Assembly (NCBI GenBank): GCA_947495125.1
Contig: CANLXL010000007.1
Coordinates: 186,001 to 250,000 of the forward strand
Length of the DNA stretch: 64,000 nt
Reading direction: 5' to 3'
DNA from: an uncultured Flaviramulus sp.
Lineage (GTDB): Bacteria > Bacteroidota > Bacteroidia > Flavobacteriales > Flavobacteriaceae
Part shown: positions 3,836-18,844 of the stretch, one piece after another
How the letters are laid out: every line of letters begins with the position of its first letter
Position numbering within the stretch: position 1 is the stretch's first letter
Notes under the pieces: generated by a model
Seen by the model: only the letters and a program-made list of their open reading frames with translations
What the model was told of the DNA's origin: nothing
The model's database searches: none
Made by a program: the position numbers and the translations under genes

Positions 3836-4870
3836 TTACATAGGAATAGCTGTTTTTTCTCTTTGAGTCTTTAAATATTCACTTGGACTTATATTATACT
3901 TTTCCTTAAATATCTTAGAAAAATAACTTCTACTGCTAAAACCTATGGTGTAAACTATCTGAGAAACATTAAGTTCTGTGCTATTTATATATTCTCTGGC
4001 AACTTCTAGTCTAACGTGTCTTATGTATTCTGTAACTGTCCTAGAATATAAGATTTTAAAGCCTTCTTGAAGTTTTGCTTGTGTTAACCCAGATTCTTCT
4101 GCCAATTGATCTAAAGTGTAATCGTAAGACACATTTTTTAGAATATCTTTAGATAATTTTTGTACTATTTTGAGTTCGCTTTTATGTAAACTTGTTTCTA
4201 CTTTATGTCCTTTTATAGCAATATCATGTTGTTGAATATGCAAAGAAAGAATTTGATAAATCATACTTTCTATTTTAAGGATTCTTATCATTCCTTTTTG
4301 TTTAACTTTTCGAAGCTTACCAATGACATCTGCCATTTTTAAATCATAGCTACCAAAATAGGTAAATACATTTTCATGATCTTTGTCTAAGAATACCTCG
4401 TATAATTTCTTATTTAGTTGAGTCACATTGTTAAGACGTTTTCTCAAGTATTCTTTTCGTATAATTTGAATAACATTGATTTCAAGTTTAATATCTTTAG
4501 GGAAATAGCCATAATTGTAGCCACCATCTTTACTGGTAATAATTACCGACTGAAATTGTTCCAGAGTTTTTGTGTCTTTTTGAAAACCAAATTTATGACC
4601 ACAATGGCCATTTAAACAATATGTAAAATGAATAGGATTATAGTTTGATGCATCCATAATGAGTGTTATATCGTCAAAGAATGTAATATCATATTCTAAT
4701 AGACTAACCCCCCAATCAAACGTAATAAATCTAATATTTCCTTTAGCTAAATTGCTATCTACCGTTAAAATATATTCGCCCCATCGTTTTTCAATATCTC
4801 CACCAATAGTATTGCGAATTTGTTTCACAGTACCTTCAGTACTTTCGGCTGTTATATTTATTTCGGTCAT
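3836..4870 (-). CDS. AraC-family transcriptional regulator (candidate master regulator of the island)
   Basis: 344 residues. The N-terminal ~230 residues are an unrecognised sensor or dimerization region with no membrane segments. Residues about 237-335 form the two-helix-turn-helix AraC/XylS domain: YTLDQLAEESGLTQAKLQEGF, then the VTEYIRHVRLEVA linker, then VSQIVYTIGFSSRSYFSKIF and KEKYNISPSEYLK. It is a single gene with TATCTTTG (4876-4883) very close to its start, implying a very short or absent leader. Inference: it binds the paired half-sites 21 bp apart found at four nearby promoters (see findings), as AraC-family proteins bind direct repeats. Its own promoter lacks such sites, so it does not appear autoregulated that way. 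Confidence 0.9.
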   Translation of the reverse strand: MTEINITAESTEGTVKQIRNTIGGDIEKRWGEYILTVDSNLAKGNIRFITFDWGVSLLEYDITFFDDITLIMDASNYNPIHFTYCLNGHCGHKFGFQKDTKTLEQFQSVIITSKDGGYNYGYFPKDIKLEINVIQIIRKEYLRKRLNNVTQLNKKLYEVFLDKDHENVFTYFGSYDLKMADVIGKLRKVKQKGMIRILKIESMIYQILSLHIQQHDIAIKGHKVETSLHKSELKIVQKLSKDILKNVSYDYTLDQLAEESGLTQAKLQEGFKILYSRTVTEYIRHVRLEVAREYINSTELNVSQIVYTIGFSSRSYFSKIFKEKYNISPSEYLKTQREKTAIPM

Positions 4871-4913
4871 AAAACCAAAGATATTTCTTTTATTTCTAAT
4901 TTCATTAAATAAA

Positions 4914-4938
4914 AAAAGACCTCAAAAGAGGCCTTTTA
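4914..4938. terminator. Hairpin terminator between the 4960 gene and the AraC gene
   Basis: AAAGACCTC (4915-4923) pairs with GAGGCCTTT (4928-4936) with one mismatch. The minus strand runs into a long T-run, so it fits termination of the 4960-5403 transcript. Confidence 0.6.
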
Positions 4939-4959
4939 CGTTTTTCTTTTATTTGACTC

Positions 4960-5403
4960 TTAGATTTTATCAAATTCATCTACTATAAAATAGTCAGCAT
5001 CTGCGTTTTTAATTACATAAGTTGCTTCACCAATTAGGTATTCCATAGATTTACCATCAACAATTACAGCAAAACCCTTTTTTGTTTCTACAAGTTCAAA
5101 AGTGTCATTTGGCATTTTCTTATAACGTAATACAATGTAACGGTCGTAGGCTTTATCTGTATCATTATCAATACTTATTAATTTTGTAACGTGTTCTAAA
5201 TTGGGATCTACTGTTTTACTTCCCATAGTTGCAGACTTACGCTTTTCAATAACTTTCACTTTATAGGTAATCATTTTTTCACTTGTTTGATATTGAAATG
5301 TTTTTACAGTGGTTGTTTGTATTTTATCTGCTATTTCCTGTCCAAAAGAAAGAGATGATATCATTATAGAAAGTGTAAGTAAAATTAATTTTAAATTTTT
5401 CAT
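4960..5403 (-). CDS. Hypothetical exported protein, predicted regulon member
   Basis: 147 residues with a clear signal peptide (residues 1-21, MKNLKLILLTLSIMISSLSFG, cleavage near SFGQE). The mature part has no Cys pairs or motif I recognise and looks like a small periplasmic or surface beta-rich protein. It is monocistronic, closed by a hairpin at 4914-4938. Its promoter is one of four with paired half-sites (5536 and 5515 on the minus strand) and the -7 box TACTTTTG at 5488-5481, so I infer control by the adjacent AraC-family gene. Confidence 0.7.
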   Translation of the reverse strand: MKNLKLILLTLSIMISSLSFGQEIADKIQTTTVKTFQYQTSEKMITYKVKVIEKRKSATMGSKTVDPNLEHVTKLISIDNDTDKAYDRYIVLRYKKMPNDTFELVETKKGFAVIVDGKSMEYLIGEATYVIKNADADYFIVDEFDKI

Positions 5404-5480
5404 TATTTATATATTAAGTTAAAAATTATTCGAAAGCATTATTTTGATACTTTATAAGAAACTTAAAAAGGATTCTGATA

Positions 5481-5536
5481 CAAAAGTATACACTAAGTCA
5501 AGCTGACCTTTGCTCATATGAAGTTTATCTTAACTC
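5481..5536 (-). promoter_or_regulatory. Predicted AraC-type operator and promoter of the 4960-5403 gene
   Basis: On the minus strand: half-site GAGTTAAGAT begins at 5536, half-site GAGCAAAGGTC begins at 5515 (21 bp on), and TACTTTTG begins at 5488 (27 bp on). No good -33 TTTG is present, as expected for an activator-dependent promoter. Confidence 0.6.
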
Positions 5537-5540
5537 AATA

Positions 5541-5970
5541 CCTTTTATAAGCAAATATGATTATTGAGTTTTTTTGTTTTAAGTCGAAAATTATATTAAA
5601 TGAACAAATAGATACTTTCATTGTTATCTAAATTTGTATCAAATAAAATCTAAGGTGGTATTTAAACCTGTTGTTTTAATCCAAATATGACGAATATGAT
5701 TCGGCAGAGTGCGATCGTTTAATCCTTCAAAATCAAAAAGCAGTATTCTAAGTTAGTATATAAGTGGCATGTTAGAAAGTAGTCTAAATGCAACAATATT
5801 GTGCTATAATATGGTAAGTGTAGGTGGTTTAGTTAATCATGTTTGCCATTTTTGATGATTTGTTTATTTCAGCTGAGTATTGTGATGCGCATTTCCATAT
5901 GCGTTAGCATTTAATTGTTTACAGGTAAAAAGACCCTTATTTATTTAAGAGTTTCACATAAAAAGAAAAA
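5541..5970. other. Intergenic, possible fifth weak copy of the operator pattern
   Basis: No gene seen. AAGTCGAAAA (5581), GAACAAATAG (5602) and TAAATTTG (5629-5636) repeat the 21/27-bp geometry with poorer half-sites, facing the SRAP gene 335 bp downstream. The remainder is AT-rich with no open frame of note. Confidence 0.35.
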
Positions 5971-6675
5971 ATGTGTTATAAGATATCTAATACCGCAACT
6001 GTAGCAACAATTGAGAAAGTATTTAATGCTTCCTTTAAGTTTCCAAAGCTCCATAAAAAGGCTGCAGTGATAGATGGCTTGATAGAGTCGTCTATTTCTA
6101 TAATAACTATGACAAATAGAGAGCAAGTATCTTTAGCTATTTGGGGTATTTTACCAGAAATGTATCAAGACGATTGGCAGTATTTTCAAAATGTACAAAA
6201 CACGTTAAATGTAAACTTGAATACAATCAACGATGATGTTAAATATAAAAAAGCTCTAAAGAGCAGACGTTGTTTAATCCTAGTAACAGGATTTTTTACC
6301 TATTATCTCCGCCATGGTGATCTGTACCCTTACTATGTGCATTTAAAATCTAATGAACCTTTTGCCATTGCGGGAGTTTTTAATGAACTAGATGATGGTT
6401 TTATAACTTGCTCTATAATAGTTTCTAAAGCAAATTCTTTTATAAAGAAGATACACAACTCAGATACTTTAATGCCTGTTGTACTAGATAAATTCAATCA
6501 AGAAAAATGGTTAGATTCTAAAATTAGTGACAAAAGAATTATTGAGATTATTAATACAGTATCTCAGTTAAGCTTTAAGGCATATCCGATAGTGAAAGAA
6601 TTTCATAAATTAGGTGTGGATTTTGATTCGGTTTTAGATCCTGTAAAGTATAAGAATATACCAAATGTTAATTAG
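5971..6675 (+). CDS. SOS-response-associated peptidase (SRAP/YedK-HMCES family), atypical
   Basis: 234 residues. SRAP hallmarks are Cys2 directly after the initiator Met (MCYKIS), RRCLILVTGFF near residues 95-105, and ANSFIKKIHNSDTLMPVVL near residues 153-171 with the conserved His. Known: Cys2 cross-links abasic sites in single-stranded DNA, with Glu of the GFYEW motif and the His as helpers. Here that motif is GFFTYY, so the usual Glu is Thr. The abasic-site cross-link may still form, but its chemistry or reversal could differ. Located on the island, single gene, with a long AT-rich leader. Confidence 0.8.
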   Translation: MCYKISNTATVATIEKVFNASFKFPKLHKKAAVIDGLIESSISIITMTNREQVSLAIWGILPEMYQDDWQYFQNVQNTLNVNLNTINDDVKYKKALKSRRCLILVTGFFTYYLRHGDLYPYYVHLKSNEPFAIAGVFNELDDGFITCSIIVSKANSFIKKIHNSDTLMPVVLDKFNQEKWLDSKISDKRIIEIINTVSQLSFKAYPIVKEFHKLGVDFDSVLDPVKYKNIPNVN

Positions 6676-6920
6676 TTCTAGCTTTTTTTAATGCTATTTC
6701 TATAGTCTTTAGCCCTTTCAGCATGATGATTTTTAATAATTATTTTACTGAGGAGTTCTATAAATGTAGAAGCCCACTTTGAAATGTATTTTGATTTATA
6801 ATTATGCGTTTAATAAGTATCTCACTATCTACGATAGCAACTTCATTCTATGTCCGCTTTATAAACCTATATTAGTAAAGATAGTTTACTTTATAATCTA
6901 TTATAGAGAAATTAGTATTT
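6676..6920. other. Intergenic, nothing recognised
   Basis: AT-rich sequence between the SRAP gene and the predicted promoter at 6921. No open frame, hairpin or repeat that I would support. Confidence 0.5.
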
Positions 6921-6976
6921 GAGCAAATATTAAAATCATACGAGTTAAGTGAATATATACAATTAAGTGATTTTTG
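6921..6976 (+). promoter_or_regulatory. Predicted AraC-type operator and promoter of the DUF1328 unit
   Basis: Half-sites GAGCAAATAT (6921) and GAGTTAAGTG (6942) are 21 bp apart, and GATTTTTG (6969-6976) starts 27 bp after the second. The -7 box differs from TAnnTTTG only in its first base. It lies 63 bp before the ATG at 7040. Confidence 0.55.
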
Positions 6977-7039
6977 CAGTGTAAGCATTAATAAAAGTTT
7001 GTTAATGCTCTATTATAGTAACCATTAAAAGTTAAAATT

Positions 7040-7201
7040 ATGGTACGTTGGACAATCACATTTATTATTATTGCGATAATTGCAGGAGTATTAGGGTTTG
7101 GAGGAATTGCAGGAGCAGCAGCAAGAATTGCTAAAATATGTTTCTTCATTTTTATAGTATTGTTTGTATTATCTCTTTTAAAAGGAATAGTTAAAAAATA
7201 A
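7040..7201 (+). CDS. DUF1328 (YtjA-like) small membrane protein
   Basis: 53 residues: [20 protein letters not shown], then [20 protein letters not shown], then a second hydrophobic segment ending KGIVKK. The W near the start, GFGGIAG core and two transmembrane segments are the DUF1328 signature. Members are small inner-membrane proteins often found with stress genes; function unknown. It precedes the lipoprotein at 7291 and follows the predicted AraC-type promoter at 6921-6976. Confidence 0.85.
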
Positions 7202-7290
7202 CTATTTATACCTATGGTTTTCAGAAATAACCAAAAGATAGCACGTATTAACATTTATATAAAATCAATAATAATTTAAAACATCACAGC

Positions 7291-7467
7291 ATGAAAAAAT
7301 TAACATACATATTCGTGTTATTATTCGCTACATCTATAATTTTCATTGGATGCAGAAAAGAGAAGTCAACTGAAGAAAAAATTGAAGATGGCATAGAGGA
7401 AGTAGTAGATGATGTAAAAGACGCTACAGAAGATGTTGCAAATGAAGTTGAAGATGCAGTAGATTAG
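7291..7467 (+). CDS. Small acidic lipoprotein
   Basis: 58 residues. Signal sequence MKKLTYIFVLLFATSIIF with lipobox FIGC (Cys at about residue 21), then a very acidic amphipathic tail of repeated EVVDDVKDATEDVANEVEDAV units that suggests a helical, Lpp- or entericidin-like envelope peptide. It follows the DUF1328 gene by 89 bp and ends at a strong hairpin, so the two probably form one transcript. The ATG at 7291 follows an A-rich leader. Confidence 0.8.
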   Translation: MKKLTYIFVLLFATSIIFIGCRKEKSTEEKIEDGIEEVVDDVKDATEDVANEVEDAVD

Positions 7468-7488
7468 AAAAATCATAATATCTTAAAT

Positions 7489-7528
7489 AATAAGGGCAGC
7501 GACGGTTTCGTCTTAACTGCCCTTATTT
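7489..7528 (+). terminator. Hairpin terminator after the small lipoprotein gene
   Basis: AATAAGGGCAG (7489-7499) pairs perfectly with CTGCCCTTATT (7517-7527). It lies 22 bp after the lipoprotein stop and 17 bp before the cardiolipin synthase ATG, so it may attenuate read-through rather than isolate the genes fully. Confidence 0.75.
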
Positions 7529-7544
7529 CGTTAACTTAGGCCAA

Positions 7545-8969
7545 ATGATAAGCATTTTAATAATACTTTATATAATTACTTCGGGGTTAGCCTTTTTAGG
7601 TGTTATATTTTATGGAGCTAGACCAAGTCGTTCATTAAGTTGGCTTTTTACAATTATTTTCATGCCTTTTATTGGCGTTATATTTTATCTGTTGTTTGGG
7701 ATTAACAGAAGGAAAATAAAATTCTTTAAACTAAAACAAACCTATAAACGTAGATTGTATGATAGCCAACATCATAAATCTAATAACCATAGGCCTTTTG
7801 AAAAATTTGTTTCAAATAAAAAGGATAAACTAGCAACGCTATTATCTAACAATAATAAATACTTGCCTTATGATGGAAATCATGTAGAAGTTCTTCAAGA
7901 TGGAACATCTACGTTTTCGTCCATTTTTAAGGCCATTAAAAACGCTAAGAATTTTATTCACATTCAATATTACATTTTAGAAGAGGGTGAATTAATGGAT
8001 GAACTATTTTCTTTATTTAAAGAAAAAATAGAACAGGGTGTAGAAATACGAATGATGTATGATGCGATTGGAAGTTTTGATTGGAAACGAAAATCTATTA
8101 AACGTTTTAAAAGTATTGGCATAACTATATGTACGTCTATGCCAATGCGTTTTGGAAGTTTTATTTTCTCATTTAACTATCGTAACCATAGAAAAATCGT
8201 AATTATTGATGGGGTTATAGGGTTTACTGGAGGTTTTAATTTAACAGATAAGTATATTAAATCTATTTCTAAGATGGGTATTTGGGAAGATACCCACCTT
8301 AAAATTGAAGGACCATCTGTTGAAAGTCTGCATAAAGTGTTTATAAAAGATTATTATTTTGCAAGTAAAGAAGATATTTTACTTGATAGTAAATATTTAC
8401 CTAAACAAGAAATTCATGGGGACAGTATTGTTCAAATTGTTGCTAGTGGTCCAGATTCAGATTATGCGGCAATCATGCAACAATATATAATGCTTATAAA
8501 TCTTGCTCATGATTTTATTTGTATTGCCAATCCGTATTTCATTCCCAGCTCTCAAGTTTTAACAGCTCTTAAAATAGCAGCGTTAAGTGGTGTTCGTGTG
8601 CAAATATTATTACCTGAGCAGTCTGATTCTGTGACAGCCAGATACAGTATGCGTTCTTATTTTGAAGAAATTATGCAAGCAGGTGTTCAAATTTATTTAA
8701 AAAAGGATAATTTTTTGCATAGTAAGTTAGTATTTATAGATGGTGAAATACTCTCAGTAGGTTCTGGAAATTTTGATAACCGGAGTTTTGACCATAACTT
8801 CGAAACAAACGCACTTATTTATGATAGTAATCTTGCAAGAGAAGTACATCAAGTATTCACAGATGACTGCGAGGCAAGTGTAAGACTTGAATTTGACCAA
8901 TTTATAAAACGACCTGTACAGGATAAATTTTTTGAGAGAATAGCTCGTTTTTTAAGTCCATTACTTTAA
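7545..8969 (+). CDS. cls: Cardiolipin synthase (phospholipase D family)
   Basis: 474 residues. Two N-terminal transmembrane segments (about 2-24 and 32-52), then two PLD domains with HKD motifs: HRKIVIIDG starting at residue 215 and HSKLVFIDG starting at residue 392, each followed by the GFTGGFN or GSGNFDNRS box. This is the full ClsA-type architecture. It makes cardiolipin from phosphatidylglycerol in the inner membrane. Followed after 21 bp by a cation/proton antiporter, probably co-transcribed. Cardiolipin content is a known response to osmotic and membrane stress, matching the island theme. Confidence 0.93.
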   Translation: MISILIILYIITSGLAFLGVIFYGARPSRSLSWLFTIIFMPFIGVIFYLLFGINRRKIKFFKLKQTYKRRLYDSQHHKSNNHRPFEKFVSNKKDKLATLLSNNNKYLPYDGNHVEVLQDGTSTFSSIFKAIKNAKNFIHIQYYILEEGELMDELFSLFKEKIEQGVEIRMMYDAIGSFDWKRKSIKRFKSIGITICTSMPMRFGSFIFSFNYRNHRKIVIIDGVIGFTGGFNLTDKYIKSISKMGIWEDTHLKIEGPSVESLHKVFIKDYYFASKEDILLDSKYLPKQEIHGDSIVQIVASGPDSDYAAIMQQYIMLINLAHDFICIANPYFIPSSQVLTALKIAALSGVRVQILLPEQSDSVTARYSMRSYFEEIMQAGVQIYLKKDNFLHSKLVFIDGEILSVGSGNFDNRSFDHNFETNALIYDSNLAREVHQVFTDDCEASVRLEFDQFIKRPVQDKFFERIARFLSPLL

Positions 8970-8990
8970 ATAGAAATTAAAATATTTTAT

Positions 8991-10295
8991 ATGGAAATTT
9001 TAACCCCCTATAATGTCATTATCATTTTCTCAATAACAATTATTCTATCTTTTTTCTTTGATAAAATATCTAAATGCACGAACATACCTTCTGTGTTAAT
9101 GCTTATCCTTTTGGGTGTGGGAGCACAGTACACTTTAAAATATTTTACTATCGATTTGCCTGATATTTTTCCAATATTAGAAATTCTTGGAATTATAGGA
9201 CTTATAATGATAGTATTAGAGGCGGCATTAGAATTGGAGTTAAAGAGAGACAAACTAAAACCCATATTAAAATCACTTTTAATAGCATTAATAGGTTTGA
9301 TAGTAACAACAGCAGCTACTACTGGAATTTTATATCAATTTATTCCAGAAATGACTTATAAATCTGCTTGGTTATATGCAACTTCTTTGTCTATTTTATC
9401 AAGTGCCATCATAATACCTAGTGTTACAGGGTTGAATGATATTAAGAAAGAATTTCATATTTATGAGAGCACATTTTCGGATATTCTTGGAATAATTATG
9501 TTCTATTTTTTAATAGAGTTATTTTCAAGTAAAGGAGGTGGTGTTATTGCTGAATATTCAGTGAGCCTTATTCTTACTATTGTTGTATCTGTTATAATCA
9601 GTTATGCCATTATATTAGTTTTTCAACGAATAGAAAGACAAGTAAAGTTATTTCTTTTAATTGCAGTACTCTTATTATTTTATGCCATAGGGAAGAAATT
9701 ACATTTGTCGTCTTTAATTATGATTTTGATTTTTGGATTAGTTATAGCAAATATGAAGCTCTTTTTTACTGGGAAAATGAAAAAATATTTACATTACGAA
9801 AAAGCAGACGATATATTACATGAACTTCATATGGTGACAGCCGAAACAGCTTTTGTAGTTCGTACATTATTCTTTGTGGCTTTTGGTTTAACCATGTTAG
9901 TAACGTCTTTGTTAAATATAAAAGTAGCCCTTATAAGCTCATTAATTATAGTTGTTACTTATCTCATACGATTCGTAATTTTACGTCTGTTTGTTGGGAA
10001 AGATATTTTACCTCAGTTATTTATTGGGCCCAGAGGATTAATAACAGTTCTGTTATTTTATGCAATTCCTAAAGAATTTCAAATAGCGTCGTTTGAGCCT
10101 GGTATTCTGTTTTTTGTTATTATTGGAACAAGTATTATTATGACTATCGTTTTAATATATAATAATAGAAAAACTTCAGAAACAGAAAATACTAATACTT
10201 TAGAAAATGATAAAGATTTTGAATTTGAAGATATTATGGAACAACGTTGTAAAAAGCCAGTAACGAAAGATATTGATGAGTTAGATTCAAATTAA
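8991..10295 (+). CDS. Cation/proton antiporter (CPA1-type Na+/H+ exchanger family)
   Basis: 434 residues with about 12 transmembrane segments and a ~40-residue acidic cytoplasmic tail. Features of the exchanger fold include LEAALELELKRDKLKP after segment 3, SSAIIIPSV and the segment around YESTFSDILGIIMF, where family members carry the ion-binding acid. FIGPRGLITVLLFYAIP is the GPRG loop typical of NhaP/CPA1 proteins. Probably exports Na+ or K+ in exchange for H+. Likely co-transcribed with cls; a bidirectional terminator follows. Confidence 0.85.
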   Translation: MEILTPYNVIIIFSITIILSFFFDKISKCTNIPSVLMLILLGVGAQYTLKYFTIDLPDIFPILEILGIIGLIMIVLEAALELELKRDKLKPILKSLLIALIGLIVTTAATTGILYQFIPEMTYKSAWLYATSLSILSSAIIIPSVTGLNDIKKEFHIYESTFSDILGIIMFYFLIELFSSKGGGVIAEYSVSLILTIVVSVIISYAIILVFQRIERQVKLFLLIAVLLLFYAIGKKLHLSSLIMILIFGLVIANMKLFFTGKMKKYLHYEKADDILHELHMVTAETAFVVRTLFFVAFGLTMLVTSLLNIKVALISSLIIVVTYLIRFVILRLFVGKDILPQLFIGPRGLITVLLFYAIPKEFQIASFEPGILFFVIIGTSIIMTIVLIYNNRKTSETENTNTLENDKDFEFEDIMEQRCKKPVTKDIDELDSN

Positions 10296-10320
10296 ATGAA
10301 TAATCATTTAGTATAAAACA

Positions 10321-10354
10321 AAAAAGGTTAACTTATTTTTAAGCTAACCTTTTT
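10321..10354. terminator. Bidirectional terminator between convergent units
   Basis: AAAAAGGTTA (10321-10330) and TAACCTTTTT (10345-10354) form a perfect 10-bp stem with T-runs on both strands, between the antiporter and the minus-strand DUF3185-like gene. Confidence 0.8.
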
Positions 10355-10371
10355 ATTGTTTCAGAACAAAT

Positions 10372-10575
10372 TTAAACTTTCTTTCTAGCCATTAAGCTTA
10401 CTAATAAAGAAGCTAAACCTAAACCGATAATGATATATGCATTCATGTTATATTGAGCTTGCATGTCAAGTGAGCGAATATTTATAGAAGCTTCTATTGC
10501 AATCAGCATATTAATGCCATAAAAGGATAGCGCAATTCCGACGACAATTAAAATAAATTTTATATGTTTATTCAT
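10372..10575 (-). CDS. Small two-helix membrane protein (DUF3185-like)
   Basis: 67 residues: a hydrophobic segment at about 6-27 (ILIVVGIALSFYGINMLIA), a polar loop, a second segment at about 47-63 (YIIIGLGLASLLVSLMA), and a basic end. Layout and size suggest DUF3185, but without a search this is tentative. It lies 54 bp downstream of the outer-membrane protein gene on the same strand with no terminator between, so it is probably in the same AraC-regulated transcript. Confidence 0.65.
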   Translation of the reverse strand: MNKHIKFILIVVGIALSFYGINMLIAIEASINIRSLDMQAQYNMNAYIIIGLGLASLLVSLMARKKV

Positions 10576-10629
10576 AATATACAGTTTTCAGTTAATATCT
10601 GTTTATAGTAATATATTATTCAGACGCTA

Positions 10630-11097
10630 TTAAAATTGGTATTTAATTCCTAAGGCGATATCAAAATCAACATTATCAGAGAACTCATCGTTAAAACCAA
10701 GTTCAGGTCTAAAATCTAATGATAAAAGAAGCGGAATATCAAAATTATATTCAATACCTATATCTCCAGCAGCAAATAGAAATGTTCCGTCTGTCAGACC
10801 AGCATCAAAAGACCCAACGCCTCCACCAGCACCAACATACCAATTAAAACTACCATCCAAAGGAAAAACCCATTGATATAATGTAGTAAGTTTAAAAGCT
10901 TCAACATTATTGCTGTCTCTCCAACCCAAATCGAATTCTAATCGGTTATTCTCTTTTAAATACCTTTGGTATGTAATTTCCCCTCCAAATCCGTTATTAT
11001 CACCAATTCTCAGACCTAAAGCATTTTTGGAAATGTCTTGTGCGTTTATTGAAAAGCTTATTAATACTAATGTTACTAACATTGTTAATGTTTTCAT
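10630..11097 (-). CDS. Small outer-membrane beta-barrel protein, predicted regulon member
   Basis: 155 residues with signal peptide MKTLTMLVTLVLISFSINA, then alternating aromatic/polar strands (NGFGGEITYQRYL, NRLEFDLGWR, SFNWYVGAGGGVGSF, DIALGIKYQF) ending in a C-terminal Phe, as in eight-stranded barrels such as OmpX/W-like proteins. The ligand is unknown. Its promoter carries the paired GAG half-sites and -7 box (11121-11176), so control by the island AraC-family protein is inferred. Confidence 0.75.
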   Translation of the reverse strand: MKTLTMLVTLVLISFSINAQDISKNALGLRIGDNNGFGGEITYQRYLKENNRLEFDLGWRDSNNVEAFKLTTLYQWVFPLDGSFNWYVGAGGGVGSFDAGLTDGTFLFAAGDIGIEYNFDIPLLLSLDFRPELGFNDEFSDNVDFDIALGIKYQF

Positions 11098-11120
11098 TTT
11101 ATATATTTTATTATTTGATG

Positions 11121-11176
11121 CAAAATTACCTTAAATGTAAAGTTTGAGTTAACTCATTTAATACAAGTCTTTGCTG
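11121..11176 (-). promoter_or_regulatory. Predicted AraC-type operator and promoter of the outer-membrane protein
   Basis: On the minus strand: CAGCAAAGAC begins at 11176, GAGTTAACTC begins at 11155 (21 bp on), and TAATTTTG begins at 11128 (27 bp on), 24 bp before the ATG at 11097. Confidence 0.6.
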
Positions 11177-11324
11177 ATATGAAAGTTGATTGATTTGTTG
11201 CATATATCTTCATTTAAAACAAGTTCTAGAATTTCTTTAAAACTGGGCTCGGGTTTGTAAGTTATTCTTTCAATAGCTGATAATTCGTTTAAAAATCAAT
11301 AATTAAAACATGTTTAACCCATAT

Positions 11325-11380
11325 GAGTTAAGATCAATTTGATAAGAGTAAAACAAGTATCTGCTTTCAATATAAATTTG
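11325..11380 (+). promoter_or_regulatory. Predicted AraC-type operator and promoter of mscS
   Basis: GAGTTAAGATC (11325) and GAGTAAAACAA (11346) are 21 bp apart, and TAAATTTG (11373-11380) starts 27 bp after the second. The ATG follows at 11398. Confidence 0.6.
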
Positions 11381-11397
11381 TAAAAAAGAAAAAGGCA

Positions 11398-12258
11398 ATG
11401 AAAACAGAAGTTATTACATCATTTCAAAAAATAGTAGAAAAACTTGAAAGATGGCTAGATACATTAATTAGCAATTTACCAAATATTGCCGTTGCGTCTT
11501 TAGTCCTATTAATCTCTTATTTTATATCAAAATTAATATATAATATAACTTTTAAGATTTCAAGACGACAAATAAAACAAGTTTCCATATCTAAGTTAGT
11601 AGCTAGAGGCGCATCCATTATTATTGTTTTATTAGGATTATTTTTGGCGTTAGGCGCTTTGAATTTGGGGAAAGCATTAACAGGATTGTTAACAGGGGCT
11701 GGAATATCTGGATTAGTTATTGGTTTAGCGCTACAAGGACCATTGTCTAATACTATTTCTGGTATTGTACTATCTTTTAGAAAAAATATTAGAATTGGAG
11801 ATTGGATAGAAACTAATGGGTACTCAGGAGAAGTTATCGATATTAATGTCAATTATTTTATTATTAGAGAAGCAGATAACAATACAGTCATATTACCTAA
11901 TAAAGTCATACTGGAAAATCCATTTAAGAATTATACCTTAACTAGTAAAATGCGTGTTACTATAGAGTGCGGTGTGGGTTATGAATCAGATTTAGAAAAA
12001 GTAGAACGAGTAACAAAAGAAACTATAGCAAAACTTTATAATCAAAAAAATATAGGCAAAGAAGTCGAGTTCTATTACACGGAATTTGGTGATAGCTCAA
12101 TAAACTATATCACACGATTTTGGGTAGATGCAGAAAGTAGTTTAGAGAAACTGCGAGCAAAAAGTATGTGCATTATAGAAATTAAAAAAGCTTACAATAG
12201 AGAAGGCTTTAATATTCCATTTCCTATTAGAACACTACAGTTTGATGATAAATTATAG
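11398..12258 (+). CDS. mscS: Small-conductance mechanosensitive channel, MscS family
   Basis: 286 residues, the size of E. coli MscS. Three hydrophobic N-terminal segments end in the pore helix LTGLLTGAGISGLVIGLALQ (about 95-116), then the beta domain FRKNIRIGDWIE near residue 130 and a C-terminal alpha/beta domain ending IPFPIRTLQFD. It opens under membrane tension to release solutes on hypo-osmotic shock. It is monocistronic and carries the predicted AraC-type promoter at 11325-11380. A second MscS is encoded at 16269. Confidence 0.92.
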   Translation: MKTEVITSFQKIVEKLERWLDTLISNLPNIAVASLVLLISYFISKLIYNITFKISRRQIKQVSISKLVARGASIIIVLLGLFLALGALNLGKALTGLLTGAGISGLVIGLALQGPLSNTISGIVLSFRKNIRIGDWIETNGYSGEVIDINVNYFIIREADNNTVILPNKVILENPFKNYTLTSKMRVTIECGVGYESDLEKVERVTKETIAKLYNQKNIGKEVEFYYTEFGDSSINYITRFWVDAESSLEKLRAKSMCIIEIKKAYNREGFNIPFPIRTLQFDDKL

Positions 12259-17131: not shown

Positions 17132-18187
17132 ATGAATAAGCAAAAGAAAAAAATAGGACTTGCTCCGGGATCGATAGTTTTTACCGGAAATAGAAAAGTT
17201 GAGAAAGTACTTATTCATCATTTACAATATGATTCCAATAATTTAAAAGAAAGGGTTTTAAGCAGTCATTCAAAATCGACATTGGTGAGCTCTGAAGAAA
17301 ATATGGTTGACTGGTATGATGTAAGAGGCATGCATGATACTGAATTAATTGGTCTTTTTGGGAGCACTTTTGATATACATCCGTTAATCTTGGAGGCTGT
17401 TGTTGATATTAATCAAAGACCAAAGTTTGAAGAATACCCTAAAGGAAATTTTATTTTACTTCGTTCATTAAAGTTTGATTCCGTAAAATTAGAATTGAAA
17501 AAGGAGCATATAGCCATTTATTTTAATAAAGGCTTTGTAGCGACATTTCAAGAAACGGAAACCGATTTATTTGAATCTGTCAGAAAACGTATTAAGGCTG
17601 ATAGGTCTCGTATTAAAATGCGAGGTGCAGATTACCTTGCATACGCATTGATGGATGAAACTGTAGACAACTATTATATTGCGCTGGAGAGCATTGAATC
17701 TCATATTGAAACACTGGATGATAAAATGATGGAAAATGTGGAGAACAATACTAAAAATAAAATTCATCATTTAAAAAAAGAGCTGCTGGCTTTACGTAAG
17801 TCCATATTACCTTTAAGAGAAGCAATCGCTAATTTTTATAAAACTGAAAGTGATTTTGTTGAAGAAGATAGTCGTGTTTTTATAAGAAATTTATATGAAA
17901 ATACCATTCAAATCATGGATGCAGTAGAATCAAATAGAGATATACTCAATGGGCTACAGGATCTTTTTATTTCTGAGGTTAGTTTCAAGATGAATAAGGT
18001 TATGCAGTTGTTAACCATAATCTCAGTTATTTTTATTCCTTTAACGTTTCTTGCCGGAATATATGGAATGAATTTTGAAAATATTCCAGAACTTAGATAT
18101 AAATACTCTTACTTTATTCTTTGGAGTATAATGATTTTGATTTTTGCTTTTATGATATATTTTTTTAAGAAAAAGAAGTGGTTATAA
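17132..18187 (+). CDS. corA: CorA-family magnesium/cobalt transporter
   Basis: 351 residues. A large N-terminal cytosolic funnel domain with the long helix region (about 180-280), then two C-terminal transmembrane segments. The selectivity motif YGMN is at residues 311-314 and is followed by FENIPE instead of the usual acidic loop. It forms a pentameric Mg2+ channel in the inner membrane. Last gene of the usp-mscS-corA operon, matching the island's ion-homeostasis theme. Confidence 0.93.
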   Translation: MNKQKKKIGLAPGSIVFTGNRKVEKVLIHHLQYDSNNLKERVLSSHSKSTLVSSEENMVDWYDVRGMHDTELIGLFGSTFDIHPLILEAVVDINQRPKFEEYPKGNFILLRSLKFDSVKLELKKEHIAIYFNKGFVATFQETETDLFESVRKRIKADRSRIKMRGADYLAYALMDETVDNYYIALESIESHIETLDDKMMENVENNTKNKIHHLKKELLALRKSILPLREAIANFYKTESDFVEEDSRVFIRNLYENTIQIMDAVESNRDILNGLQDLFISEVSFKMNKVMQLLTIISVIFIPLTFLAGIYGMNFENIPELRYKYSYFILWSIMILIFAFMIYFFKKKKWL

Positions 18188-18326
18188 GTATCATCAAGGT
18201 AATTGCTTAATAATTTTACTCTATATTTTTGGCCGACACTAAACAGTACATTGAGTAGGCTTTTTTACTTCAAAGAAAATCAATTAACTTTGTGAAATAC
18301 ACTCTAGATTCTTTATCCTAAAAAGT

Positions 18327-18461
18327 TCAGATTTTGCTGACCCTATTCATAATATTAATTTTATTTTCAATAGGCGGTTTCTTTTTAATTCTAGGTCGTC
18401 TTGCTCCAAAAGTTCCTCTGTTTATTTTCCCGCGCTTTGTTTTTTTATCACCTTTTCCCAT
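18327..18461 (-). CDS. 30S ribosomal protein THX
   Basis: 44 residues starting MGKGDKKTKRGKINRGTFGA then RRPRIKKKPP and a short tail. The MGKGDKKTxRGKI opening is the hallmark of THX (bTHX) proteins, which sit in the head of the 30S subunit. It was found by reading the minus strand downstream of corA, to which it is convergent. It lies inside the proposed island, which is unusual for a ribosomal protein. The C-terminal 14 residues (IENKINIMNRVSKI) look unlike the usual Lys/Ala-rich ending. Confidence 0.85.
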   Translation of the reverse strand: MGKGDKKTKRGKINRGTFGARRPRIKKKPPIENKINIMNRVSKI

Positions 18462-18844
18462 TATAAATAATTTACAGTTGTTTTTTATTTAATATACTGA
18501 TGTTTTGCTTAAAAGCCAAGCGAAACTTGTTTAAACATAAACAGCTAAAAACTAAAAGAGTATAATACAAAATTAGAATTAGTTTCAAATGAAGTGCCTC
18601 GAATACATAAATTTGTCATTCCTGTACAAGTTACAACAATAAGCTAATTTTGGATATTAAGGCAAAAGAATTAGAATATGATGCAGGAGGATTGCTTAAT
18701 GAGTATTGATATTCTCCACAAGTTAATTGATTTTACATGGAATATTAATAGATAACTGTAACAAATTATATTTTTTTTTATCTTTTAAAAGAGCCTATAT
18801 TTAATTGTCCGACCCAATAATATGAAATTTAAAGAAGTTCATAA
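18462..18844. other. Intergenic, no supported gene
   Basis: AT-rich region between THX and the ABC permease, upstream of both. I see no open frame, clear TAnnTTTG promoter or GAG half-site pair. Short runs such as the T-run at 18772-18780 have no clear role. Confidence 0.5.

Follow-up and report, generated by a model that had tools for sequence, protein, structure and literature searches.

What do the promoters of several small membrane and envelope genes have in common with a nearby gene for an AraC-type transcription factor? The question is raised by a stretch of 64,000 nucleotides from an uncultured Flaviramulus sp. of the Flavobacteriaceae (assembly GCA_947495125.1, contig CANLXL010000007.1, positions 186,001 to 250,000), referred to below as the window. 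The initial annotation of this window proposed that four promoters share one layout: two direct-repeat half-sites, SAGYWAA, starting 21 bp apart, and a −7 box, TAnnTTTG, starting 27 bp after the second of them. We found all four half-site pairs where they had been placed, at 5536 and 11176 on the minus strand and at 6921 and 11325 on the plus strand; the shared box is perfect in three of the four promoters and is one mismatch off at 6969 (GATTTTTG). The further claim, that this fixed geometry marks a regulon tied to the AraC-type protein encoded at 3836..4870 on the minus strand, is supported by the geometry scans, by site scoring and by co-occurrence at DUF1328 promoters. From this evidence we infer that the 344-aa protein quite probably binds these promoters as a dimer and activates them.

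The geometry in relatives

We looked for the regulator in 149 Flavobacteriaceae genomes; the ten best matches besides the window's own were 50–85% identical to it, and a second group stood at ∼43% and below. In a first set of ten 20-kb loci around regulator orthologues we scanned 676 geometries, i.e. combinations of half-site spacing and box offset. At ≤1+1 mismatches, 13 of the 69 matches fell into the cell (21,27), while the next cell held 3 and the mean was 0.10 per cell.

The second set consisted of 80 named loci that were retrieved through their regulator gene (the best 80 among 120 relatives), 28 of which formed one clade with the window in a tree (clade A). They come from Flavivirga, Algibacter, Aquimarina, Lacinutrix, Croceitalea, Tenacibaculum, Lutibacter, Polaribacter, Winogradskyella, Gelidibacter, Maribacter, Dokdonia and other genera; among the best 80 the nearest named orthologues were those of Flavivirga aquatica (84% identity) and an uncultured Algibacter (81%). 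The sets overlap in two named clade-A loci (L210 and L216, which are G072 and G091 of the first set), and three locus pairs are nearly identical. When the 676 geometries were scanned over the 28 clade-A loci, 27 of the 28 perfect matches were at (21,27), against a mean of 0.001 in the other cells; at ≤1+1 mismatches it was 52 of 242, against 0.28. Counted by locus, a (21,27) site was present in 21, 26 and 28 of the 28 loci at ≤1, 2 and 3 mismatches, respectively; the corresponding means for 483 other geometries were 0.06, 0.76 and 6.26 loci, and the highest values 4, 14 and 23.

The remaining 52 loci, with regulators 34–42% identical to that of the window (group B), gave a weaker peak: 27 matches at (21,27) against a mean of 0.38, at ≤1+1 mismatches. 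We treated group B as related, not as the same regulon.

Specificity within the genome

Within the window, only the four proposed places have the strict pair SAGYWAA-N14-SAGYWAA; when all spacings from 8 to 59 were allowed, a single extra pair appeared, at spacing 18. The whole genome (5,356,512 bases) holds 26 strict pairs. As 15 of these belong to tandem arrays of CAGCTAA on contigs C18 and C22, 4 of the remaining 11 fall within 5.8 kb. The arrays themselves are head-to-tail heptamers located at the start of one contig (G000:C18:2-78) and at the end of the other (C22:39603-39672).

The pattern GAGYWAA-N14-GAGYWAA with ≤1 mismatch has 64 matches genome-wide. Among the 60 matches other than the proposed sites, all inspected with their flanks, none had a box with 0 or 1 mismatch at 27; two mismatches were seen in 2, three in 10 and four to six in 48. 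Thus the half-site pair with its box was not found elsewhere in the genome, and the suspicion that it occurs at chance density, named in the initial annotation as a ground for refutation, was not confirmed.

A matrix was trained on 56 sites from other genomes, leaving out the window and the two relatives nearest to it; it ranked the four proposed sites first to fourth in the 64-kb window (46.6, 46.1, 37.7 and 37.4). In 40 random Markov windows of 64 kb the mean maximum was 3.2 and the highest score 15.4. As to further targets in this genome, none was found: the 60 other pairs had no box, a looser pattern gave 29 matches including the four proposed sites, against 32 for a backwards control, and no score >8 appeared in 232,565 bases of own-genome DNA (overlaps counted), the part that the matrix scan covered; weak or unlike distant sites may exist outside it. 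From these searches the regulon in the window's genome looks local.

Another direct repeat with a 21-bp period, approximately AATGAGTAAAC-N-TTTnATTGAGTAAAC, was seen along the way; it is mostly intergenic and has no −7 box at 27. It occurs in L005 (G000:C4:248763), L290, L296, L298, L307, L315, L323, L328, L330, L331, L333, L335–L338 and L340, as well as in genomes without this regulator (four places in G036).

Co-occurrence with the regulator

For 54 genomes out of a sample of 148 we compared the DNA upstream of DUF1328 genes, calling the regulator family at a best E <1e-40. A site (≤3 mismatches over half-sites and box) was present in 14 of 34 genomes with the family and in 0 of 20 without it (Fisher 4e-4), and this is the loss of sites that the initial annotation had expected in genomes lacking the regulator. 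When genomes were divided by the closer regulators (E ∼1e-65 or better), the ratio was 13 of 20 versus 1 of 34 (Fisher 8e-7). With a matrix trained on the named loci only, sites were detected at DUF1328 promoters of 7 of 10 clade-A genomes (the window's included), 7 of 24 group-B genomes and 0 of 20 genomes without the regulator; the matches scored at least 14.5, and the best regulator-free promoter scored −11.

Sites were also found in trans: one, with an exact box, precedes the DUF1328 gene of genome G113 at a distance of 2.1 Mb from the regulator on the contig, and another fronts a PNPOx-like gene in G125, its box one mismatch off. Ten clade-A genomes together have 33 perfect GAGYWAA pairs, 31 of them readable, with an exact box at 27 in 6 and a box with one mismatch in 3; in 12 genomes without the regulator the 21 perfect pairs had no exact box and one with a single mismatch, within a reading frame. 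In a sample of 296 genomes of the phylum (the window's included), 19 matched the regulator at E 1e-25 or better; 17 of these are of the same family, and the other two, from another family of the class, are only 24–26% identical.

The site model

We aligned 64 distinct sites from the window, the 28 named loci and 8 further loci, selected for ≤1 box mismatch. The half-site extends to about TAwwTGAGYWAA; its upstream copy favours GAGTTAA and its downstream copy GAGCAAA. Signals outside the search pattern are A at −4 and 17, T at −1 and 20, and a purine at position 60. Positions 28–47 carry ≤0.33 bit each, with nothing resembling a −33 element between the proximal half-site and the box. That the four promoters lack a −33 element had been proposed before; inspection of the sites and the logo agree with it, and since there is no such element, activation is the likely mode.

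No box other than the primary-sigma −7 type was seen at the four promoters of the window: TAnnTTTG is present in three of the four promoters, with one mismatch in the fourth, and the logo agrees with it, though the sites had been preselected for the box. In the promoter data consulted from a Flavobacterium psychrophilum study (PMC9723704), the TAnnTTTG box lies at −12 to −5; by this measure +1 would be at site position 60, where the purine is seen. Counted from there, the half-sites would span −65 to −54 (distal) and −44 to −33 (proximal).

Promoters and genes of the window

Promoter 1 (5481..5541, minus strand; score 46.6) has half-sites from 5536 and 5515, the −7 box TACTTTTG at 5488-5481 and a predicted start at ∼5476. 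It precedes the SecP gene (4960..5403, minus), whose 147-aa product has a signal-like N-terminus and no Pfam family. Divergent from it is a fifth, weaker site, 5581+ (5576..5636, plus; score 23.7), that the initial annotation had missed: its proximal half-site, GAACAAA, starts at 5602, its box, TAAATTTG, is at 5629-5636, its distal half-site is degenerate, and the start predicted for it is at ∼5641. It lies ∼330 nt before a gene for a 234-aa SRAP-like protein (5971..6675, plus; Pfam SRAP 9.7e-30), a probable fifth target. The divergent pair of SecP and SRAP sites was also found in locus L045.

Promoter 2 (6916..6976, plus; score 37.7), with half-sites from 6921 and 6942, the one-mismatch box at 6969-6976 and a predicted start at ∼6981, fronts the genes for a 53-aa DUF1328 membrane protein (7040..7201, plus; assigned by Pfam) and a 58-aa small lipoprotein (7291..7467, plus), which trails DUF1328 in several relatives as well. 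The cardiolipin synthase gene (7545..8969, plus; TIGR04265 7.9e-131) is a possible downstream member of this transcript, possibly with the Na+/H+ exchanger family gene (8991..10295, plus; PF00999 6.7e-25), which starts 22 nt past it.

Promoter 3 (11121..11181, minus; score 37.4) has half-sites from 11176 and 11155, the box TAATTTTG at 11128-11121 and a predicted start at ∼11116. It fronts OMP155 (10630..11097, minus), an exported 155-aa protein, outer-membrane-like by appearance, followed by a 67-aa membrane-protein-like ORF 3′ of it (10372..10575, minus) with a homologue in L041; both are without a Pfam family. Promoter 4 (11320..11380, plus; score 46.1), with half-sites from 11325 and 11346, the box TAAATTTG at 11373-11380 and a predicted start at ∼11385, fronts the gene for a 286-aa MscS mechanosensitive channel (11398..12258, plus; PF00924 1.6e-17).

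Targets across relatives

In leave-one-locus-out scoring of the 36 clade-A loci outside the window (near-identical loci were kept in the training set), 89 sites scored ≥20, distributed over 32 loci. Their targets were DUF1328 (19), DUF2383, YtxH and SRAP (11 each), OMP155 and Dps (9 each), SecP (7, with two reference proteins), hemerythrin (2), CsbD (1), a PNPOx-like gene (1) and others (8, one of them Pmp3); Pfam names were checked on representatives. A separate count of 91 sites that included the window also had DUF1328 as the commonest target (25 of 91), with the SecP family at 7 of 91. Sites in group-B loci front OsmC and DUF1328 genes, among others; weaker ones, with three mismatches in total, at which chance matches are expected too, front Usp, DUF892, CsbD and OsmC genes.

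By its gene content the clade-A target set looks like a general-stress set, while the window's own targets lean to the envelope. Envelope stress and membrane tension, proposed initially as the common theme, are too narrow: clade-A sites of relatives also front genes for Dps, DUF2383, YtxH, SRAP, hemerythrin, PNPOx-like proteins, Pmp3 and CsbD, i.e. the targets are not confined to envelope functions.

In F. aquatica (L041) the site and mscS are separated by the remains of a Dps gene, interrupted by stop codons, at 18038-18557. There is no such remnant in the window, where the site is directly upstream of mscS (11325-11398). The regulon seems to change its members by such losses. Since the Flavivirga site is followed first by the decayed Dps gene and only then by mscS, the latter appears to have been recruited late.

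The SRAP-like proteins have a peculiarity of their own. All 34 homologues of this type in the fetched loci (including L041, L045 and L223–L225) have another residue in place of the Glu of the GFYEW-like motif, and Cys2 is kept in 4 of the 34 only (the window, L041, L211 and L044). A canonical SRAP protein in the same alignment (L121) keeps both residues, and the solved relative 2f20 also has the Glu. We take the two residues to be catalytic; the SRAP-like protein may be a catalytically changed SRAP.

The regulator

The 344-aa product of 3836..4870 matches Pfam HTH_18 (3.9e-19) over residues 256–334 and consists of a cupin-like N-terminal domain, a helical linker and a C-terminal AraC DNA-binding domain. 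In the predicted structure (pLDDT 84, pTM 0.62), strands occupy residues 25–136 and helices 149–219. The model resembles ToxT, Rns, CsvR, CuxR and AraC: target TM was up to 0.90 for the DNA-binding domain against solved AraC-type domains, and the N-terminal part matched the dimerization domains of ToxT, CuxR and AraC. ToxT, Rns, CsvR and CuxR were the best full-length structural matches, at 12–17% identity and a whole-chain TM of 0.26–0.32 (query length). The protein has the two-HTH C-terminal domain of the AraC/XylS family; the model also shows the cupin-type N-terminal domain of this family, for which effector binding and dimerization are predicted.

The runner-up in the same genome is 26% identical over residues 156–335 only. 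AraC-type paralogues form clusters in relatives L041, L044 and L140 (four each in L041 and L044), and several are present in G143 and G262; the window's genome has one. The cognate protein is therefore unambiguous only in single-copy genomes, such as this one.

No site was found upstream of the regulator gene in the window that could suggest autoregulation; the best matrix score there was −25.6. The gene has a TATCTTTG box of its own at 4876-4883, and since this is 5 nt upstream of the start codon, a nearly leaderless transcript is suggested. A terminator-like hairpin lies at 4937-4914, between the regulator gene and SecP. An OMP155 site is located closely upstream of the regulator, on the opposite strand, in several loci of Tenacibaculum and relatives, so that autoregulation may occur there.

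Proposed mechanism and alternatives

In the mechanism that we propose, a dimer of the AraC-type protein would bind the two half-sites, ∼TAwwTGAGYWAA, on one face of the DNA two helical turns (21 bp) apart, and would recruit RNA polymerase with the primary sigma factor at a fixed distance, the polymerase reading only the −7 box. The proximal half-site, at about −44 to −33, would substitute for the missing −33 element in the class II manner of AraC and XylS. What the sequences provide for this class is direct repeats, the proximal one at the upstream promoter element, and a fixed distance. The cupin-like domain would respond to some effector. In the window the regulon would comprise four strong promoters and one weaker one, acting on SecP, DUF1328 and the lipoprotein (perhaps with cardiolipin synthase and the antiporter), OMP155, MscS and, with some probability, the SRAP-like gene. 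In the Flavobacteriaceae as a whole, regulators of this clade would control a varying set of small stress-protection genes, and their output would thus go beyond envelope stress to a general stress programme.

Several observations weigh against this reading. The named loci were fetched through the regulator, and proximity to it was thus built into the set; the independent tests are those at DUF1328 promoters and in trans. In the DUF1328 comparison the Fisher values are too small, because genomes were compared as if unrelated, and one genome counted as being without the regulator (G041) has a partial match at 7e-29. At the DUF1328 gene the site is missing from three of the ten clade-A genomes that have this gene (G091, G097 and G013), and in group B it reached a score ≥10 in 7 of 24 genomes only. 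Among clade-A loci, L232 and L233 have no (21,27) site at ≤2 mismatches, and 4 of the 36 loci (L231, L235, L048 and L049) have no site scoring ≥20. Matches at three mismatches are a weak criterion alone, since at this level other geometries, too, are found in as many as 23 of the 28 loci. Finally, in several relatives with paralogues the cognate protein is ambiguous.

The motif was picked after the sequence had been read, and one could suspect a chance pattern of AT-rich DNA; identical geometry in other genomes, held-out scoring and genome-wide specificity make this extremely improbable, and we rejected it. A further concern is that the AraC gene is tied to the sites by co-occurrence only. Another regulator travelling with the same genes might bind them, e.g. 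the DNA-binding protein of neighbouring two-component genes, and in several group-B loci there are indeed genes for a kinase and a response regulator, along with a second AraC-type HTH protein of 180 aa. We consider this unlikely: in the ten clade-A loci searched neither the kinase nor the response regulator of the window had a homologue, yet many of these loci have sites; the window's response regulator next to mscS shows no match beyond a receiver domain; a two-HTH AraC dimer would suit direct repeats separated by two helical turns; and the DUF1328-promoter sites are missing where the AraC family is missing. As to the group-B neighbourhoods themselves, in L053, L055–L057, L059 and L060 the regulators adjoin genes for a large histidine kinase, a ∼148-aa response regulator and a ∼180-aa HTH protein; in L055 these three correspond to a kinase rich in PAS domains, a receiver domain and an HTH of the AraC type. 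Such genes are a possible signalling input.

Two other readings keep the AraC-type protein and change its role. It might repress these promoters, or be dual and repress them without ligand, as its proximal half-site overlaps the place where polymerase would read a −33 element and AraC itself is a dual regulator. Yet across the 64 sites there is no −33 element to block, and the constant 27-bp distance to the −7 box in front of different genes is what contact with polymerase would call for and what a repressor could do without; repression is improbable to about the same degree as a different binding protein. The regulon might instead be specific for envelope stress or hypo-osmotic conditions, as initially proposed. 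The window's MscS, outer-membrane-like protein, lipoprotein, DUF1328 and possibly cardiolipin synthase speak for this. On the other side are the Dps, DUF2383, YtxH, SRAP, hemerythrin and PNPOx-like genes behind clade-A sites of relatives, and the decayed Dps gene that the mscS site meets first in the closely related Flavivirga. We hold such a narrow role to be doubtful, though less so than the two readings just discussed, and prefer activation of a broader stress set by the AraC-type protein.

Relation to known systems and significance

The closest parallels are the class II activators AraC (at araBAD) and XylS (at Pm), which also use two direct-repeat half-sites, have two HTH motifs per monomer and place the proximal site at the upstream promoter element; AraC and XylS sites have a 21-bp period. 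The promoters described here differ by the Bacteroidota −7 box TAnnTTTG, by the absence of a −33 element and by stress rather than catabolic targets. For XylS, the portions consulted of one paper (PMC5481539) describe two 15-bp direct repeats, a dimer and contact with RNA polymerase, and cite work on overlapping sites of activator and polymerase.

In the kinds of targets (Dps, CsbD, YtxH, OsmC and small membrane proteins, which belong to sigma-B or RpoS regulons) the system is similar to the sigma-B regulon of Bacillus and the RpoS regulon of Escherichia coli. It differs from both in that a transcription factor is predicted to act on primary-sigma promoters with no alternative sigma factor, and in that the window's regulon is a single gene cluster. 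Within the same family, the sections consulted of the F. psychrophilum study describe sigma-54, SM5 and ECF-type promoters, with some targets tied to the envelope stress response; these have −24/−12 elements, TAnnTTGY or CGT boxes, while here the box is the primary-sigma TAnnTTTG (PMC9723704). The term AraC is absent from the main text of that paper.

The initial annotation knew of no described regulon of this kind. Our literature search agrees: by title and beginning of abstract, no AraC regulon with DUF1328, CsbD, YtxH, DUF2383 or general stress in Flavobacteriaceae or Bacteroidetes was found in the one open-access library searched, most subscription-journal papers and preprints being outside its scope. 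This is a new regulon under a regulator of known kind.

To our knowledge, the general stress response of Bacteroidota is poorly characterized. One could speculate, and we do so tentatively, that this AraC-type clade is the transcription-factor counterpart of sigma-B and RpoS in Flavobacteriaceae: primary-sigma promoters without a −33 element would be licensed by a 21-bp repeat placed 27 bp before the −7 box, and membership would be reshuffled by promoter capture, as when Dps decayed and was then lost before mscS. The regulon offers a testable regulator, whose clade-A orthologues span roughly a dozen named genera, together with a sharply defined binding-site model and predicted transcription starts. 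It also places small proteins that have no known function (DUF1328, DUF2383, YtxH, SecP and OMP155) in a functional context.

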